Below are positions 2,665 through 9,138 of a stretch of DNA of 40,388 bases, one piece after another (the stretch's first letter is position 1; each line of letters begins with the position of its first letter). The stretch spans positions 1 to 40,388 of the forward strand of contig JALVQI010000081.1 in the NCBI GenBank assembly GCA_027031485.1, read 5' to 3'. Both the position numbers and the translations under genes were made by a program. A model generated the notes under the pieces. The model was given only the letters and a program-made list of their open reading frames with translations. It had not been told where the DNA came from and did not search any database. The DNA is from Candidatus Aminicenantota bacterium. GTDB lineage: Bacteria; Acidobacteriota; Aminicenantia; JAMOAD01.

Positions 2665-3552
2665 ATGTTAGTTGAAAAGACAGATTTGAAAGGGATCAAC
2701 TTCCTTAAAAGAGGAAAAGTTAGAGATATTTATGATTTGGGAGATTCTCTGTTGTTAATTTCTACCGATCGAATCTCTGCCTTTGATTTTGTTTTACCAT
2801 CTCTTATTCCCTGCAAGGGAAAGGTTTTAAATTCCATTTCGGTTTTCTGGTTTCAAAAATTCAAAGATGAAGTTGAAAACCATCTTATTTACCACAAAAT
2901 TGAAGATTACCCTGATGAATTGAAAAAATATAAAGAAATACTTGAAGGTAGGTCCGTGATCGTTAGAAAACTGAATCCAATACCATTTGAAATTATTGTC
3001 AGAGGTTATATAACCGGTTCAGGCTGGAAGTCTTATAAAGAAAGCGGTCAAATTTCAGGAATCAAACTTCCCGAAGGACTGAAAGAGAGTGATAAATTCC
3101 CAGAACCTCTTTTTACCCCGACTACAAAAGCTGAAGAGGGACATGATTTGCCAGTATCAAAAGAAGAAATGGCAAATAAAATAGGGAAAGAGCTGACCGA
3201 TCTTTTAGAAGAAACAGCAATAAACATTTATAAAAAGGCAGCCGAATACGCTCTCAAAAAAGGAATAATAATAGCGGACACAAAATTTGAGTTTGCTGAA
3301 GAGGATGGTAAGTTAATTTTAATAGATGAAGTTTTAACTCCTGATTCATCAAGGTTCTGGCCACTTAAAGATTATGAACCAGGTAGAGCTCAAAATAGTT
3401 TTGACAAGCAATTTGTAAGAAATTATTTATTATCTTCGGATTGGGACAGAAAGACAACCCCTCCGCCACTACCCGAAGACATAGTTCAAAAAACTTCCTC
3501 TCTCTACAGGCAGATATACGAACTTTTGACAGAAGAAAAGATTAACTGTTAA
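2665..3552 (+). CDS. purC: SAICAR synthetase (phosphoribosylaminoimidazole-succinocarboxamide synthase)
   Basis: PurC performs the ATP-dependent joining of CAIR with aspartate in de novo purine synthesis, in the cytoplasm. Visible signatures are RGKVRDIYDLGD (residues 16-27), TDRISAFDFVLP, VRGYITGSGWKSY and, toward the end, DEVLTPDSSRFWP. At 295 aa it belongs to the longer class, compared with about 237 aa for the E. coli type. SD AAAGGAGAGG lies just before ATG. It is followed after one base by a CvpA-like gene. That pairing recalls E. coli, where cvpA precedes purF and purines and cvpA are linked. No other purine gene is in the window. Confidence 0.96.
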   Translation: MLVEKTDLKGINFLKRGKVRDIYDLGDSLLLISTDRISAFDFVLPSLIPCKGKVLNSISVFWFQKFKDEVENHLIYHKIEDYPDELKKYKEILEGRSVIVRKLNPIPFEIIVRGYITGSGWKSYKESGQISGIKLPEGLKESDKFPEPLFTPTTKAEEGHDLPVSKEEMANKIGKELTDLLEETAINIYKKAAEYALKKGIIIADTKFEFAEEDGKLILIDEVLTPDSSRFWPLKDYEPGRAQNSFDKQFVRNYLLSSDWDRKTTPPPLPEDIVQKTSSLYRQIYELLTEEKINC

Positions 3553-3553
3553 A

Positions 3554-4048
3554 ATGACAGCCCTTGACTATACCTTAATAGCTATAGTGTCCTTTTTTGT
3601 TTTAATGGGACTTCTAAATGGATTTATTTCAAGCGTAATCTCAATTATTACCTTAATAGGAGGAGTGTTTTTAGCTTTTAAATACGGAGTAGTACTTTCC
3701 ACAATTTTACCTTTTTCTAAAACAGTGGCTGAAATAGTCGCTTTCGTAGGAATTATCATAATATCAATAATTATTGGAAAGCTATCTTCCTATATATTAA
3801 AAAAAATCATGTTTGGCAGTTTAAAACTTTTAGATAGGCTTTTGGGAGCTCTATTGGGTTTTGTTGAAGGTTTTTTTGTCTCTTTTTTTATCGTTTACAT
3901 ACTTGTGGTTTTCGCAGCCGGGAAAATCACATTAAAGCAGAATAGTTTTTCTTACTTTGTTTATGAGAACGGGAGAAAAATCATTAATGTTGTAAAAAAA
4001 GAAAAAATAAAGAGATATAATGGAAAAGAATTTAAAGGGCAAGCTTGA
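3554..4048 (+). CDS. cvpA: CvpA family membrane protein
   Basis: Inner-membrane protein of 164 aa with about four hydrophobic helices (roughly residues 5-25, 28-48, 58-85, 98-125) and a charged C-terminal tail. The pattern of short loops with LLNGFISS near the start and LDRLLGALLGFVEGF in the last third is typical of the CvpA/colicin V production family. CvpA proteins are linked to cell envelope homeostasis, but no biochemical activity is established. Start ATG is 1 nt after the purC stop, so the two are translationally coupled. The tail overlaps the next gene by 29 nt. Confidence 0.8.
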   Translation: MTALDYTLIAIVSFFVLMGLLNGFISSVISIITLIGGVFLAFKYGVVLSTILPFSKTVAEIVAFVGIIIISIIIGKLSSYILKKIMFGSLKLLDRLLGALLGFVEGFFVSFFIVYILVVFAAGKITLKQNSFSYFVYENGRKIINVVKKEKIKRYNGKEFKGQA

Positions 4049-4256
4049 AGAAATTGCAAATTTTGTAATCAGAAATCATCTCTCCTTAAAGGATATTATG
4101 GATGAAATGGAAAAAACATTAATAGAAACAGCATTAAAAGAGACAAATTTCAATAAGGTGAGAGCTGCAAAACTATTGAAACTTCATAGAAATACAATCA
4201 GATTGAAAATAAAAAAATTGGGAATAAATGACGAGGAAACCATAGAGATTGAATAA
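4020..4256 (+). CDS. Fis-type helix-turn-helix protein (orphan HTH_8 domain)
   Basis: Small protein of 78 aa whose second half (about residues 38-70) is a Fis-type HTH: ETALKETNFNKVRAAKLL followed by HRNTIRLKIKKLGI. This domain usually ends NtrC-family activators or forms the Fis nucleoid protein. Here there is no AAA+ or receiver domain, and the N-terminal 35 residues form a short helical segment that could dimerise. The ATG overlaps the end of cvpA by 29 nt in another frame, with a purine-rich AAGAG before it. A DNA-binding role is inferred from the domain; targets are unknown. The strong promoter of the polyamine operon starts only 8 nt after the stop, so that operon is a natural candidate target. 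Confidence 0.75.
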   Translation: MEKNLKGKLEEIANFVIRNHLSLKDIMDEMEKTLIETALKETNFNKVRAAKLLKLHRNTIRLKIKKLGINDEETIEIE

Positions 4257-4263
4257 ATTAATA

Positions 4264-4291
4264 TTGACTATTTTTTTAAAAAAGATATAAT
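4264..4291 (+). promoter_or_regulatory. Strong predicted promoter of the polyamine operon
   Basis: TTGACT (4264-4269), 16-nt spacer, perfect TATAAT (4286-4291). Transcription would start near 4298, leaving a leader of about 95 nt before speD that contains a tiny ORF with its own SD. Confidence 0.75.
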
Positions 4292-4321
4292 ATAGGTTCT
4301 TAAAAAAATTGGAGGTTTGCC

Positions 4322-4369
4322 GTGTTAAAGTGCAACCAGAAATCTTTATTTTTTATTGATGATTTGTAG
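4322..4369 (+). CDS. Possible 15-aa leader peptide upstream of speD
   Basis: GTG start with an excellent SD GGAGG (4311-4315, 6-nt spacing), 15 codons encoding MLKCNQKSLFFIDDL, stop TAG at 4367-4369. The initiation region GGAGG-TTTGCC-GTG closely resembles that of speD 72 nt downstream (GGAGG-TGTGCC-ATG). It sits wholly inside the predicted speD leader. A weak hairpin may form between GGTTTGC (4314-4320) and GCAACC (4332-4337), placing the GTG in the loop. Translation is inferred; a regulatory role in polyamine response is a hypothesis only. Confidence 0.4.
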   Translation: MLKCNQKSLFFIDDL

Positions 4370-4393
4370 GAATTAAAATTTAGGAGGTGTGCC

Positions 4394-4798
4394 ATGCGGG
4401 AAGCATTGGGGAATCACATTTTAGTGGAATTCTACAATTGTGATTCTGAAAGGTTAAGATCAGTTGAGTACATTGAAAGGGTTTTATTAAGGGCTGCCGA
4501 AGAATCAGGGGCAAAGGTGGTAACATCAAATTTTCATCAATTTCAACCTTATGGGGTCTCAGGTGTGGTAGTCATAGAGGAATCTCATTACACTATTCAT
4601 ACCTGGCCTGAACACAATTATGCGGCTGTGGATCTTTTTTACTGCGATCCCTCAGTTGATGTTGACAGAGCCATTGATGTCATTAGTGAAGCTTTGAATT
4701 CAAAAAATTATTCCACTATGGAAATTAAAAGAGGAACTTTTATAAATCAAAAAACCCTTTCCAATGCTGAATCCGAGGTAGAAAGGGAGGCAGTTTAA
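4394..4798 (+). CDS. speD: S-adenosylmethionine decarboxylase proenzyme
   Basis: SpeD makes decarboxylated AdoMet, the aminopropyl donor for spermidine synthesis. It is made as a proenzyme that self-cleaves to give a pyruvoyl group. The class 1b bacterial/archaeal signature is clear: VVIEESHYTIHTWPEHNYAAVD, with predicted cleavage between Glu63 and Ser64, His69 for processing and Cys84 (LFYCD) as the catalytic acid. Length 134 aa is normal. SD GGAGG is 6 nt before ATG. It is followed after 2 nt by the first of two aminopropyltransferases, so donor-forming and donor-using enzymes are co-transcribed. Confidence 0.97.
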   Translation: MREALGNHILVEFYNCDSERLRSVEYIERVLLRAAEESGAKVVTSNFHQFQPYGVSGVVVIEESHYTIHTWPEHNYAAVDLFYCDPSVDVDRAIDVISEALNSKNYSTMEIKRGTFINQKTLSNAESEVEREAV

Positions 4799-4800
4799 TT

Positions 4801-5718
4801 GTGAGCGACGAAACCGACAATAGTGGCCTCTGGTACAGAGAGGATTTCGGAGACAGTGTAAGCTATCTTAATAGAGTAGAAAAAGTATATTTTAGCGGAA
4901 AATCAAAGTTTCAGAATATAGATATTGTTGAACTCGGATTTTTAGGCAAAACTCTCTTTTTGGACTCCAAAATCCAATCAGCTCAAATTGATGAGCATAT
5001 TTATCATGAAGCACTGGTACATCCTGCTTTACTCCTTCACCCCGAGCCAAAAAAAGTCTTAATAATAGGCGGCGGTGAAGGTGCAACTCTAAGAGAAGTT
5101 TTAAAATACAAAGATCTGGATAAAGCTGTAATGGTGGATATAGACGGCGAATTAGTGGAATATTGTAAGGAGTATATGCCTGAATGGTCAGATGGAGCTT
5201 ATGATGACCCCCGTGCCGAACTTATTATAGGAGATGCTAAGGAATACATAGAAAAGGACGGAGAAAAATTTGATGTAATTATTTCAGATTTAACGGAACC
5301 CCTTGAAGAGGGACCTTCTGTTTTTCTTTTTACCAGGGAATTTTATAATAAAATCTATGAACGGCTTAATAATCATGGAATATTTGTGGCACAATCAGGT
5401 TCCGCCTTTACGGGTATTGCTCAATTTATGGCAACAAATTATAAAACACTCGGGAAGGTTTTTCCGGAGGTAATACCATATCAAATTTTCATATTCTCCT
5501 TTTCCATGATGTGGGGGTTTAACCTTGCATTAAAAGGTTTGAACTTTAAGAATGAATTAAAAAAAGTAAATAAAAGATTAACGGATAAAGCAATTAACCT
5601 AAAACATCTTGACTATAATTTAATAGAATCCATGACAGTTCTTTCCAAAGAGCTAAAAAAAGAGCTTGAAAAGGGAATAATATCAACGGATGATTCACCG
5701 TTTTTCTGGACACTCTGA
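4801..5718 (+). CDS. speE: Aminopropyltransferase 1 (Thermus SpeE-like spermidine synthase paralog)
   Basis: Transfers the aminopropyl group of decarboxylated AdoMet to a polyamine or agmatine. Motifs: YHEALVHPA (68-76), glycine loop GGGEGATLREVLKY (90-103), MVDIDGELVE (111-120) that binds the donor ribose, and the catalytic region DLTEP at 163-167. The stretch EYMPEW-x5-DDPRA and the STDDSPFFWTL ending recall the Thermus enzyme that acts on agmatine and longer amines, so the acceptor may not be putrescine. Length 305 aa. GTG start, 2 nt after speD, with GGGAGG SD inside the end of speD. Family is firm; acceptor is inferred. Confidence 0.9.
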   Translation: MSDETDNSGLWYREDFGDSVSYLNRVEKVYFSGKSKFQNIDIVELGFLGKTLFLDSKIQSAQIDEHIYHEALVHPALLLHPEPKKVLIIGGGEGATLREVLKYKDLDKAVMVDIDGELVEYCKEYMPEWSDGAYDDPRAELIIGDAKEYIEKDGEKFDVIISDLTEPLEEGPSVFLFTREFYNKIYERLNNHGIFVAQSGSAFTGIAQFMATNYKTLGKVFPEVIPYQIFIFSFSMMWGFNLALKGLNFKNELKKVNKRLTDKAINLKHLDYNLIESMTVLSKELKKELEKGIISTDDSPFFWTL

Positions 5719-5721
5719 AAA

Positions 5722-6525
5722 ATGAAAGATGAATTTTGGTTCAAGGAATTTCATCATAAAGGCTTTTATATCGGCTTTAAAAAGAAAAAGGTCTTAAAGG
5801 AATTTAAATCTAAGTATCAAAAGATTGAGGTATTTTATAATGAGTTCTGGGGGAATGTTTTAATCCTTGACGGTCTTGTTATGATTACGGAAAAGGATGA
5901 ATTTTTCTATCATGAAGCTATTGCCCACCCTCCCCTTTTTGTCTCCGAAAAGCCCAAAAGAGTGCTTATAATAGGCGGAGGAGACGGGGGAACTTTAAGA
6001 GAGGTTTTAAAGCATAATGTGGAGAGTGCTGACCTTGTGGAGATTGATGAAGCTGTTATAAATGTGTCAAAGGAATTTTTTCCGGACATTGCTGCTTCAT
6101 TTACTGATAAAAGAGCAAATATAATAACAGAGGATGGCGTCAGGTTTTTAGAAAAAACGGAGAATAAATACGATGTGATAATTGTGGACTCATCGGAGCC
6201 TTTCGGTCCGTCTTCTGTGCTTTTCACCCGTAAATTTTATTCATTGATGAAAGATAAAATTAGTGATTCCGGAGTGATATCCGCCCAATTGGGAAGTTAT
6301 CTCTTTCATAAGAAATTCATCTCAGAGTTTTTCAAAGAGATAAAAGATCTTTTTAAGGATTCTTATCTTTATACAGGAATTACCCCGACCTATCCGGGAG
6401 GATTATGGACATACGGTATTTTCTCAAAGAAAAATTTAATAAAAGACTCTGTCTGGAAAAAGGATATTCAGACAAAATATTACAATGAGTTGATTTTCAA
6501 AGGCTCTCTTAAGAGTGAGATATGA
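5722..6525 (+). CDS. speE: Aminopropyltransferase 2 (canonical spermidine synthase type)
   Basis: Second spermidine synthase-family enzyme, 267 aa. Motifs: FFYHEAIAHPPLF (61-73), GGGDGGTLREVLKH (85-98), LVEIDEAVI (105-113), VDSSEP (155-160, normally D-[ST]-[ST]-D-P, so Glu replaces Asp) and the C-terminal TPTYPGGLWTYG (221-232) that lines the acceptor pocket in putrescine aminopropyltransferases. This is the more typical SpeE of the pair. ATG is 3 nt after the stop of paralog 1. Clear divergence between the two in the acceptor region suggests different amine acceptors and not a recent duplication. Confidence 0.92.
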   Translation: MKDEFWFKEFHHKGFYIGFKKKKVLKEFKSKYQKIEVFYNEFWGNVLILDGLVMITEKDEFFYHEAIAHPPLFVSEKPKRVLIIGGGDGGTLREVLKHNVESADLVEIDEAVINVSKEFFPDIAASFTDKRANIITEDGVRFLEKTENKYDVIIVDSSEPFGPSSVLFTRKFYSLMKDKISDSGVISAQLGSYLFHKKFISEFFKEIKDLFKDSYLYTGITPTYPGGLWTYGIFSKKNLIKDSVWKKDIQTKYYNELIFKGSLKSEI

Positions 6526-7184
6526 AAAAAGTTTTAATAACCGCCCCTCTCTCGCCTCTGGGAAAACTTTTCGTAAAATACTATGGCGAAAGAGGAGATT
6601 TTCTCTTTTTGCATTATAGAGGGACCCACCACAGCAGTGTTGATTCAATTCTCTCAAAATACAGAGGGGAAGGATTTCATTTTGAATTCAAAATGAATAA
6701 TATTGATGAGTGGATTGAAGAGATATCCTTTATTGAACCGGATGTGCTGATAAACAACTTTGGTCCCTTTATATATAAAAACTGGAAAGAACAGACCTAT
6801 GATGAGTGGAAGGAGATTATTGAGTATAATCTATTGCTTACATTTTTTTCAGCCCGGAAGGCTCTTGAATTGATGATAAAAAAGGGTTATGGCCGTGTAA
6901 TAAACATTGGATTTCACAATCTTGAAAAAAAAGATTTTTATTTCCCCAATGTATTACCCTATGCAATTTCAAAATTCGGTATTCAGATTTTAACGGAAAC
7001 TTTATCAAAGGATATTAAAGAGGAAAACATTAAAATAAACCTTATTTCTCCGGAATATGTAAAAGGGGTAAAACCTGATCCCATGAGTAAACCCGTATCA
7101 GAGAAAAGTTTATTTCCCATTCTTAATGAGATAATGGGGGATAAAGGTGTCAGCGGTAAACATTATATTATAAAGGAGGAATAA
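6522..7184 (+). CDS. Short-chain dehydrogenase/reductase family protein with degenerate active site
   Basis: Rossmann-fold SDR of 220 aa. Asn103 (IEYNLLLTFF) and the Tyr-Lys pair Tyr147/Lys151 (YAISK) of the classical active site are present, as is NNFG (78-81) in place of NNAG. Two features depart from the family: the cofactor loop is TAPLSPLG (7-14) in place of TGxxxGxG, and the catalytic Ser region reads INIGFHN, with no Ser near residue 131. Some pteridine reductases also lack this Ser, but nothing else proves that activity. ATG overlaps the previous stop by 4 nt (ATGA), so it is translationally coupled to the aminopropyltransferase. Substrate unknown. Confidence 0.8.
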   Translation: MKKVLITAPLSPLGKLFVKYYGERGDFLFLHYRGTHHSSVDSILSKYRGEGFHFEFKMNNIDEWIEEISFIEPDVLINNFGPFIYKNWKEQTYDEWKEIIEYNLLLTFFSARKALELMIKKGYGRVINIGFHNLEKKDFYFPNVLPYAISKFGIQILTETLSKDIKEENIKINLISPEYVKGVKPDPMSKPVSEKSLFPILNEIMGDKGVSGKHYIIKEE

Positions 7185-8140
7185 TGAATCCTAAATATAT
7201 ATTCGGTCCTGTTCCCTCAAGGAGACTGGGAAATTCACTGGGAATAAATCCTATCCCTCTTAAAACCTGTAATTACTCCTGTGTATACTGTCAGCTCGGA
7301 AAAACTTCGGATTTAAAAAATGAGATAAAAGAGTATTTTCCTCTGAATGAAATTGAAGCTGAATTGGTGAATTTTTTCCAAAATGTTAAAAATCTTCCGG
7401 ATTACATAACAATAGTCGGAGAGGGAGAGCCTCTCCTGTATTCAAAGTTGGGAGAATTAATAGCTTTTATAAAGGAGACTTTTTTACCTCCCGTAGCTCT
7501 TATTACAAATGGTTCCCTTCTTTATATTAAAGAGGTAAGAGATAGTGTCTCAAATGTCGATGTGATTTTGCCAACTGTTGATACTGTTATCCCCGAAACC
7601 TTTAAAAAGATTAACAGGCCCTATCGTGATTTGAGTTTGGAAAAGATTCTTGAAGGTTTGCTTCTGACGAAAGCGAGTTTTAAAGGAGAATTCTGGGCTG
7701 AGGTTATGCTCGTAAAGGGATTGAATGACAGTGAAAAAGAGATTATTGCTCTTTCCGAATATTTTAAAAAATTAAAACCCGATAGAATTTTCATAAATAT
7801 CCCCGTAAGACCTCCGGCTGACAGCTGGGTTGAATCTCCCGACATATCAGCTTTTCATATTGTGGAAAAATATATTCCGGAAGCAGAGTTCATAAATTTT
7901 TCTGCTGCAGGTATTATTGATCCTGAAGCCTATGACTCTCTGGAAGAGCTTATAATTTCGGTGTCAAGAAGACACCCGATAAGTCTTCAACTTTTGAAAA
8001 ATTCTGTAAATGAATCGGATGAAAAAATAGAAAAGGCAATAAAAAAACTTGAGAGTGAAGAAAAAATAAAGCTTTTAAAACACGGAAACAAAACTTTTAT
8101 AAGAGGGCTTTCAGAGAGAACAAAATTATTAAACAGATAA
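7184..8140 (+). CDS. Radical SAM protein (COG0731-like Fe-S oxidoreductase)
   Basis: Radical SAM enzyme of 318 aa. The N-terminus FGPVPSRRLGNSLGI (7-21) followed by the 4Fe-4S motif C29-x3-C33-x2-C36 (CNYSCVYC) identifies the family sometimes annotated as Fe-S oxidoreductase or wyosine-like. GEGEPLLY (79-86) is the SAM-binding GGE-type motif. The last 70 residues look like a winged-helix domain (ISLQLLKNSVNESDEKIEKA). Reaction unknown. Start ATG overlaps the preceding TAA by one base with AAAGGAGG before it, so it is the last gene of the polyamine operon. It converges with the next gene, leaving only 2 nt between stops. Confidence 0.88.
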   Translation: MNPKYIFGPVPSRRLGNSLGINPIPLKTCNYSCVYCQLGKTSDLKNEIKEYFPLNEIEAELVNFFQNVKNLPDYITIVGEGEPLLYSKLGELIAFIKETFLPPVALITNGSLLYIKEVRDSVSNVDVILPTVDTVIPETFKKINRPYRDLSLEKILEGLLLTKASFKGEFWAEVMLVKGLNDSEKEIIALSEYFKKLKPDRIFINIPVRPPADSWVESPDISAFHIVEKYIPEAEFINFSAAGIIDPEAYDSLEELIISVSRRHPISLQLLKNSVNESDEKIEKAIKKLESEEKIKLLKHGNKTFIRGLSERTKLLNR

Positions 8141-8142
8141 AA

Positions 8143-9138
8143 TCAGGGCATTTTCCCCTTTAAAAGATCAAAAAGGTATTCTGTGGGAATTCCCATAAAT
8201 GTTTTTCTCCACACTCTATCACAATTATTGCATGTTTGAAGATCTGCAATATCCTGTTTTGCATGCTTTTCTCTGAAATGGACTAATTTTTCCCCATTCC
8301 AGATCTCTTTTAAAGACATATCCTGTATGTTTTCAAGGGGATAGTATTCAAAGAAATCCTGAGAACATGGCATTGCTCTTCCGTTCCATAAAACAATTAT
8401 TCCATGCCATAAAAAGGTGCAGGGAGTGAACTTTATCTTTTTGTTTTTTAATCTGACATATCCTGCCCAATTATGAATTTTTTTTACCACAAGTTCGTCT
8501 AAGTCTAAACCCTCAAAATTTTTTAAAAATTTCCTCCGCTTTTCCATATCAGAAATCTCGGAGTTCGGAAAATCTATAAGTTCTATGGCAACTATCGGAT
8601 GCTTTGCTTTCATCTCCTTTTTTAAAATTAATAAATTTCGGATGTTTTCTACGACCTCATCAAATTTCGCACCCACACGTATTCTCTCATACGTCTTTGG
8701 TGTATAACCATCAAATGAAAAGGAAATTCTATCAAGTCCGGATTTTATGATTTCCTTTGATAATTCTTTTGTCAGGACAGTTCCGTTTGTATGAAGCTTT
8801 GTTCTCCATCTGTACTTTGTAACATAGTGCAATAATTTTACAAATTCCGGGTGAAGAAGGCTTTCTCCTCTGTGGAGAAGGCTTACATCAAAAATATACT
8901 CCTGGGCTTCATCAACAAGCTTTTTGAAAACTTCAAAATCCATATATCCTCTCTGTTCGTCAGGCAAATCCTTATTTGGGCACATTACGCATTTAAGATT
9001 ACAATCAGAGGAAAGCTCAATCCATAAACGAACAGGCAAATTTTTTAAAACGGTTTTTCTTCTGATATACTCAGAGTATAAGCCTAACAATCTTTTATAA
9101 TATTTTACAGTTCCTTTCATAGTTAAGGATTTTATCAT
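8143..9138 (-). CDS. Radical SAM/SPASM domain protein
   Basis: Protein of 331 aa. N-terminal radical SAM core with C46-x3-C50-x2-C53 (CNLKCVMC), LHRGESLLHPEF as the SAM-binding segment and LHTNGT in a later strand. The C-terminal SPASM-like region has Cys240, Cys258 (MPCSQDF), Cys303 and Cys306, able to bind an auxiliary Fe-S cluster. Similar proteins act in peptide maturation, sugar chemistry or are uncharacterised, so the substrate is open. It lies 40 bp downstream of dinB on the same strand and no good promoter was seen in the gap, so it is probably the third gene of the lexA operon. No SD is obvious; Met7 (9120) is an alternative start. Confidence 0.85.
   Translation of the reverse strand: MIKSLTMKGTVKYYKRLLGLYSEYIRRKTVLKNLPVRLWIELSSDCNLKCVMCPNKDLPDEQRGYMDFEVFKKLVDEAQEYIFDVSLLHRGESLLHPEFVKLLHYVTKYRWRTKLHTNGTVLTKELSKEIIKSGLDRISFSFDGYTPKTYERIRVGAKFDEVVENIRNLLILKKEMKAKHPIVAIELIDFPNSEISDMEKRRKFLKNFEGLDLDELVVKKIHNWAGYVRLKNKKIKFTPCTFLWHGIIVLWNGRAMPCSQDFFEYYPLENIQDMSLKEIWNGEKLVHFREKHAKQDIADLQTCNNCDRVWRKTFMGIPTEYLFDLLKGKMP

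Follow-up and report, generated by a model that had tools for sequence, protein, structure and literature searches.

The stretch of DNA analysed here (the window, 40,388 nucleotides) corresponds to contig C81 in a Candidatus Aminicenantota genome of 2.97 Mb (G000; 97.8% complete, 5.8% contamination), and it encodes an S-adenosylmethionine (AdoMet) decarboxylase, SpeD, followed by two aminopropyltransferases, SpeE1 and SpeE2. The genes speD, speE1 and speE2 form a tight operon in this Aminicenantes genome (Table 1), and just before speD lies a short open reading frame (ORF) whose final residues recur before related bacterial speD genes. We read the locus as a two-step aminopropylation operon controlled by leader-peptide stalling before speD, and for that reading as a whole we judge the chances to be even. 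The genes, the two clades of the SpeE proteins, the pathway genes of the genome, and the spacing and peptide-level conservation of the leader were obtained by direct computation.

Two aminopropyltransferase lineages behind one speD

The two SpeE proteins differ in the acceptor region, PYQIFIFSFSMMWGF in SpeE1 vs TPTYPGGLWTYG in SpeE2, and in their relatives of solved structure: the Thermus enzyme is the best match to SpeE1 (2.3e-73), followed by Medicago thermospermine synthase (TSPS; 7.7e-63), and Bacillus subtilis spermidine synthase is the best match to SpeE2 (6.7e-67). The nearest named relative of SpeE1, 94% identical, is encoded in a Candidatus Aminicenantes metagenome-assembled genome. 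A maximum-likelihood tree was constructed from 75 aminopropyltransferases, the truncated SpeE2 of locus L062 having been excluded beforehand. One side of the tree (32 rows, support 100/99) contains 29 SpeE1-type proteins together with the Thermus, Pyrobaculum and Medicago TSPS enzymes, and the other (43 rows, 100/99) contains the SpeE2-type proteins together with the T. maritima, B. subtilis, Arabidopsis (SPDS1) and E. coli spermidine synthases. In the approximately unbiased (AU) test, constraining SpeE1 and SpeE2 of family f1 to group together was rejected (p = 4.8e-7), and forcing the f1 SpeE1 onto the spermidine-synthase side was rejected more weakly (p = 0.018). Judged by sequence, SpeE1 and SpeE2 separated long ago and represent distinct lineages. 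An origin of the pair by duplication in place was considered as well and is rejected by the first of these tests.

SpeE1 has E93 (in GGGEGA), D113 and an aspartate, D163, at the catalytic position, and its blocks GGGEGATL and VMVDIDGEL place GGGEGA and the motif-3 Asp at the Medicago TSPS positions; SpeE2 has D88 (in GGGDGG), E107 and, at the catalytic position, D156. The TIGR00417 speE cut-off (249.55 bits) is passed by SpeE2 (294.3) and failed by SpeE1 (222.7). By tree position and by GGGEGA with the motif-3 Asp, SpeE1 belongs to the thermospermine synthase clade, and by TIGR00417 and clade SpeE2 belongs with the spermidine/N1-aminopropylagmatine synthases. At the QxE position, where the acceptor-binding residue of Arabidopsis spermidine synthase is Glu236 (PMC6514230), SpeE2 has QLG, without the acidic residue; because E. 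coli SpeE, a spermidine synthase by annotation and solved structure, has QNG there, this residue is no family marker and was not used to exclude SpeE2. Motifs do not split thermospermine synthases (TspmSyn) from spermidine synthases, or the latter from the rest (PMC11107197), and we therefore infer the substrates and products of SpeE1 and SpeE2.

SpeD scores 141.1 bits against TIGR03330 (cut-off 75.65), and its S64, H69 and C84 align with the processing and catalytic residues S63, H68 and C83 of the T. maritima enzyme (PMC10407285); by profile cut-off and by these residues, it is a class 1b AdoMet decarboxylase, and a profile search found no other SpeD in the G000 genome. The same genome encodes a pyruvoyl arginine decarboxylase (PvlArgDC) and an agmatinase that scores over its cut-off. 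It has no match to the PF02784 decarboxylase of the ornithine decarboxylase (ODC) fold, which means that a diaminopimelate decarboxylase of that fold was not found either; agmatine deiminase was likewise not found in it, and its matches to the aspartate aminotransferase-fold decarboxylase (PF01276) and to branched-chain polyamine synthase were sub-threshold only. Because PvlArgDC and agmatinase are present and neither an ODC-type enzyme nor agmatine deiminase was found, agmatine is the likely diamine source. A third, weak PF01564 match in this genome (G000:C11:31758-32183, minus strand) lies in a 780-aa frame, and many relatives have long frames of this kind.

The likely route, as predicted from these genes, leads from agmatine through N1-aminopropylagmatine to spermidine and then to a thermospermine-type tetraamine. 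SpeD would supply decarboxylated AdoMet, SpeE2 would put one aminopropyl group on agmatine (or on putrescine made by agmatinase), agmatinase would convert N1-aminopropylagmatine to spermidine, and SpeE1 would attach the second aminopropyl group, giving the tetraamine or N12-guanidinothermospermine. Among 60 genomes examined, G000 included, 10 have SpeE1-type and SpeE2-type genes next to each other, so the tandem is no assembly accident, and nine of these 10 tandem-speE genomes encode PvlArgDC, G001 being the exception. The genome G003 has speD-speE2-SDR-radical SAM (SDR, short-chain dehydrogenase/reductase) without speE1, its speD and speE2 lying ~170 nt apart; this genome, 85% complete, gave a single PF01564 match and no SpeE1-type gene. 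Such a natural deletion is as expected if SpeE2 is the core triamine enzyme and SpeE1 an accessory one, a division of roles that we take as probable, with tetraamine synthesis as the part of SpeE1.

Several observations count against this assignment. The tree has many long end branches, for which the tool warned of possible false joins, only three characterised references stand on its SpeE1 side, and the AU test that holds SpeE1 off the spermidine side does so with the weaker of the two values given above. The clade of SpeE1 also includes spermidine/N1-aminopropylagmatine synthases (PMC11107197), so its product cannot be read from clade and motif, and the pattern published for spermine synthases (Asp, +2 Gly, Glu) occurs in SpeE2 as well. 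A search for PvlArgDC found none in G001, which is 99% complete, or in any of the seven f4 genomes (G007, G011, G014, G017, G020, G023 and G026; completeness up to 100%), which have a leader of the same kind before speD-speE1 and SpeE2 located elsewhere.

Two other assignments of the enzymes were weighed. The enzymes might serve alternative routes, SpeE1 acting mainly as a Thermus-type agmatine enzyme and SpeE2 as a putrescine enzyme, both ending in spermidine with no dedicated tetraamine synthesis; the solved enzyme that matches SpeE1 best does use agmatine (PMC11107197), and with arginine decarboxylase and agmatinase present both agmatine and putrescine could be formed. However, Thermus was the only thermospermine synthase that made N1-aminopropylagmatine, which nearly all spermidine synthases made, so the assignment would be reversed; one member of each tested pair made spermine or thermospermine (PMC11107197), and G003 retains SpeE2 only. 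We regard this division of labour as unlikely. It is more doubtful still that SpeE2 makes spermine and leaves spermidine to SpeE1, an arrangement suggested by GGGDGG with the motif-3 Glu, by the missing QxE glutamate of the Arabidopsis enzyme and by the occurrence of spermidine synthases within the TspmSyn clade (PMC11107197). The same pattern is present in T. maritima spermidine synthase, it is SpeE2 and not SpeE1 that passes TIGR00417, and speD is paired with a SpeE2-type gene alone in G003 and in four genomes of family f22.

The preferred assignment, with SpeE2 making the triamine and SpeE1 the tetraamine, places the tandem among enzymes of an already characterised kind, pairs of TspmSyn and spermidine/N1-aminopropylagmatine synthase described in 2024 (PMC11107197). 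As in Thermodesulfovibrio yellowstonii, there is one paralog per clade, GGGEGA in the TspmSyn-type member, and a genome that encodes an arginine decarboxylase but no recognised ODC; here, in contrast, speD and both speE genes are neighbours in a single operon that also has a leader ORF. That paper describes linkage for P. aeruginosa speD2-speE2, and its main text uses the words 'operon', 'adjacent' and 'leader' 0 times. The T. thermophilus SpeE (1uir/3anx), the closest solved structure to SpeE1, shares with it the blocks GGGEGAT, MPEW and DLT[DE]P, but there one enzyme serves for both agmatine and spermidine, whereas here a second, spermidine-synthase-type enzyme stands alongside. A preliminary description of the locus had recognised tandem divergent aminopropyltransferases with speD, the first Thermus-type, and this is borne out by the gene calls, the Pfam Spermine_synth matches, the acceptor-region sequences and the tree, in which the two paralogs do not fall inside one putrescine-specific clade and the first joins the 100/99 clade of Thermus, Pyrobaculum and Medicago TSPS; the second is of spermidine-synthase type. 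Its suggestion that the pair may make spermidine and a longer or thermospermine-like polyamine is still the best reading of the sequences, with the products predicted; the two alternative routes that it also offered are the first of the rival assignments weighed above. It had also taken the TPTYPGGLWTYG pocket as the sign of a putrescine enzyme, which does not hold: 17 of the 18 bacterial spermidine synthases characterised also use agmatine (PMC11107197), no ODC was found, and SpeE2 has QLG at QxE. The novelty that it gave to the pair was overstated, such pairs being characterised already. The enzyme tandem extends a known theme to uncultured Aminicenantes, for which a search of the open-access PMC literature found no polyamine work, and it predicts tetraamines made from agmatine.

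A conserved short ORF before speD

The region covered by the preliminary description, 4394-6525, is correct for speD-speE1-speE2 and omits the conserved short ORF at 4322-4369, a putative leader peptide that was overlooked. We compared 15 related bacterial loci, defined by a speD with the active-site block ESH[YF]TIHTWPE: the window, G001-G004, seven f4 genomes, G009, one WOR-3 genome and one Hydrothermota genome. All 15, spanning Aminicenantes, WOR-3 and Hydrothermota, have 5' of speD a short ORF led by a Shine-Dalgarno site and ending in [IVLW]-D-[DN]-[WLF]-stop. The peptides are 14-19 residues long, with the ends FFIDDL, FLDDF, YIDNW, YVDNW, IIDDW and FWDNW. The leader stop lies 11-14 nt from the speD Shine-Dalgarno site in 13 loci and 16-18 nt from it in the other two. 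When a single fixed rule was applied to 80 distinct speD loci, ORF and end motif were found in 13/13 bacterial loci of the ESH[YF]TIHTWPE type (G003, removed by a contig-end filter, and G014, with an identical SpeD segment, are outside this set and both carry ORF and motif), and the end motif was found in 0/15 f3-type and 0/48 other speDs, including the named records from Acetoanaerobium, Anoxybacillus, Persicobacter and Microvirga. As controls, 857 regions upstream of other ORFs (150 aa or longer) were screened; 110 had some short ORF led by a Shine-Dalgarno site and none had the motif. Among the loci scanned, no similar leader with the motif was found before speE genes lacking an adjacent speD.

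Leaders of closely related genomes differ at synonymous positions. In genus g1 (the window, G001 and G002), 4/4 distinct changes are synonymous, and 303 of 100000 random placements keep the peptide; in the f4 genus g6 (four genomes), the figures are 5/5 and 84 of 100000. Ratios of nonsynonymous to synonymous change (pN/pS) are 0.17, 0.06, 0.55 and 0.29 in four groups. RNA folding of eight leaders revealed no structure in common (z from -2.0 to +1.0, one below -1), and in seven of the eight folding was not clearly better than in shuffled sequences. The exclusively synonymous change and the lack of a shared fold point to conservation acting on the peptide rather than on the RNA, and the short ORF has the peptide-level conservation by which nascent-peptide leaders of the TnaC/SpeFL/MAGDIS kind are recognised. 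A riboswitch scan with Rfam over positions 3000-8200 gave four sub-threshold chance matches only. No description of a leader peptide before a bacterial speD was found in the open-access PMC literature, subscription papers being mostly outside that coverage.

The four f22 genomes, from the same phylum and outside the class of the window, have a speD of ~54-57% identity followed by a SpeE2-type gene, and before it an ORF of 24-29 residues led by a Shine-Dalgarno site. Three of the four peptides share MVSD...DRC...WGIN...LQRDYTNG, and in three of the four loci the ORF stop lies 3-4 nt from the speD Shine-Dalgarno site. The f22 stretch RCVGKK-WGIN is similar to LCVGKIYIDNW of f4, which suggests that the f22 and f4 leaders may be of common origin.

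Predicted control of SpeD synthesis

In eukaryotes, a ribosome pauses at high spermidine at the stop codon of the MAGDIS upstream ORF (uORF) and blocks initiation on the AdoMet decarboxylase message (PMC13025110). We read the short ORF as a putative leader peptide controlling speD in a MAGDIS-uORF-like manner. The 15-residue peptide made just before speD would control SpeD synthesis: at high polyamine (or another pathway product), the ribosome would stall at the leader stop behind I-D-D-L, cover the speD ribosome site 12 nt downstream, and thereby turn off the supply of decarboxylated AdoMet. Given usual ribosome footprints, a ribosome halted at the leader stop is estimated to overlap an initiating 30S subunit, and the proposed block follows from this estimated overlap. 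We infer that the leader is translated and that ribosomes stall on it, as well as the ligand and the direction of control. More tentatively, and with somewhat less than even confidence, we suggest that an arrest-peptide family in three phylum-level groups senses a polyamine in the ribosome tunnel, perhaps the thermospermine-type product of SpeE1 or spermidine, and blocks SpeD synthesis, as a separately arisen counterpart of MAGDIS.

The evidence is not all on one side. The leader was not found before four IMG/VR speDs that have the same active-site block, and the f22 peptides are longer and lack the motif at their end. The sequences had been inspected before the motif was defined, so the counts describe its rarity and are no blind test. 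Outside the last three to four residues the peptides diverge widely between families, so common descent of the leaders across phyla is not established, and the pN/pS of 0.55 comes from one group of three leaders.

Short ORFs led by a Shine-Dalgarno site are common enough in the control regions that chance has to be considered; given the terminal motif in 15/15 loci vs 0/857 controls and the synonymous-only change, a chance ORF is very improbable. It is easier to imagine, though still unlikely, that the ORF serves merely for translational coupling to speD or for ribosome loading and that the peptide itself is irrelevant. Strong Shine-Dalgarno sites and the 11-14 nt spacing to the speD site suit coupling, as does the tighter spacing in f22, but a coupler does not need a conserved C-terminus, and the synonymous-only change in two genera together with the shared end in 15 loci favours the peptide. 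In the window, leader and speD share a reading frame that no further stop interrupts, which would allow a leader-speD fusion by stop readthrough or frameshifting, similar to eukaryotic antizyme; the frame is kept in just seven of the 15 loci, and L005 has an extra in-frame stop between leader and speD, leaving this candidate unsupported and its probability close to nil.

A regulatory leader peptide, if that is what the short ORF encodes, would resemble the MAGDIS uORF in being a very short ORF before an AdoMet decarboxylase gene with an acidic residue near its stop; it differs in sequence, and eukaryotic scanning there contrasts with a putative block on a Shine-Dalgarno site here (PMC13025110). 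Among bacterial leader peptides of polyamine genes, E. coli SpeFL arrests at its own stop upon ornithine, and MdtU, with a conserved C-terminus, acts with spermidine (PMC7815308, PMC8429421), but other polyamine genes lie behind them (for MdtU a spermidine exporter, with involvement of Rho), whereas the window-type leader stands before speD, has 14-19 residues and has no conserved RNA fold. The spermidine riboswitch, a SAM-I variant, is also a 5' leader element of bacterial polyamine biosynthesis genes (PMC10853860), but it is a structured RNA, and no riboswitch match was found here. AdoMet decarboxylase is the source of the aminopropyl donor, and in animals a six-residue uORF keeps it under spermidine control; a leader before bacterial speD would, if real, add an independent second example of control at this point. 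It would also offer a very small arrest sequence and reveal which polyamine the cell measures, and if true it would matter more than the enzyme tandem.

Operon layout and relatives of speD

The five genes from speD to the radical SAM gene all point the same way and are closely packed, with no gap or overlap longer than 4 nt: 2 nt separate speD from speE1 and 3 nt speE1 from speE2, and the SDR gene overlaps speE2 by 4 nt. The SDR and radical SAM genes directly follow speE2 in 5/5 genomes of family f1, and in G009 speE2 is likewise followed by an SDR gene (28% identity). The promoter search gave three sites in a 500-base stretch vs 1.9 expected by shuffling, and L004 and L005 have the same promoter hexamers 5' of the leader.

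Table 1. Coordinates of the features of the speD locus in the window
Feature	Position	Strand	Remarks
Sigma70-like promoter TTGACT-16-TATAAT	4264-4291	+	11/12 consensus matches; consensus match, not mapped start
Leader Shine-Dalgarno GGAGG	4311-4315	+	Read from sequence
Short ORF, proposed speD leader peptide	4322-4369	+	15 codons, GTG start, ends I-D-D-L-TAG
speD Shine-Dalgarno AGGAGG	4382-4387	+	12 nt past leader stop
speD	4394-4798	+	134 aa, class 1b AdoMet decarboxylase; TIGR03330 1.7e-41
speE1	4801-5718	+	305 aa, GTG start; aminopropyltransferase, thermospermine/Thermus clade; Pfam Spermine_synth 1.9e-46
speE2	5722-6525	+	267 aa; aminopropyltransferase, spermidine/N1-aminopropylagmatine synthase clade; Pfam Spermine_synth 2.4e-63
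SDR	6522-7184	+	adh_short 1.3e-18; operon partner
Radical SAM protein	7184-8140	+	PF04055 2.3e-16; operon partner

Immediately 5' of the speD promoter, a gene for a 78-aa Fis-family helix-turn-helix protein (4020-4256, plus strand; PF02954, 1.2e-12) was too short for the program-made ORF list.

AdoMet decarboxylases are told from SpeD-derived, neofunctionalised arginine and ornithine decarboxylases by a conserved Pro and by the lack of a Gln/Thr/Phe/Tyr set (PMC10407285); HTWPE is intact in the SpeD of the window, and its Pro may correspond to the conserved Pro of that work. Three f5 genomes (G034:C12:10628-11393, G054:C60:1-634 and G056:C654:8017-8838) have two adjoining speD homologues followed by a SpeE2-type gene, and PvlArgDC was not found in them; the second copy may be a neofunctionalised arginine/ornithine decarboxylase of the kind described in PMC10407285. 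Paired SpeD matches occur at G051:C12:175994-176710 (316-aa frame) and G052:C645:9162-9878 (278-aa frame), and at G016:C93:39077-39717 two SpeD matches, one of them weak, lie side by side; all three are probable double-SpeD proteins. Microcystis phage MaAM05 (L172, MW495066.1:247177-250560) has an annotated speD-speD-speE-speB run.

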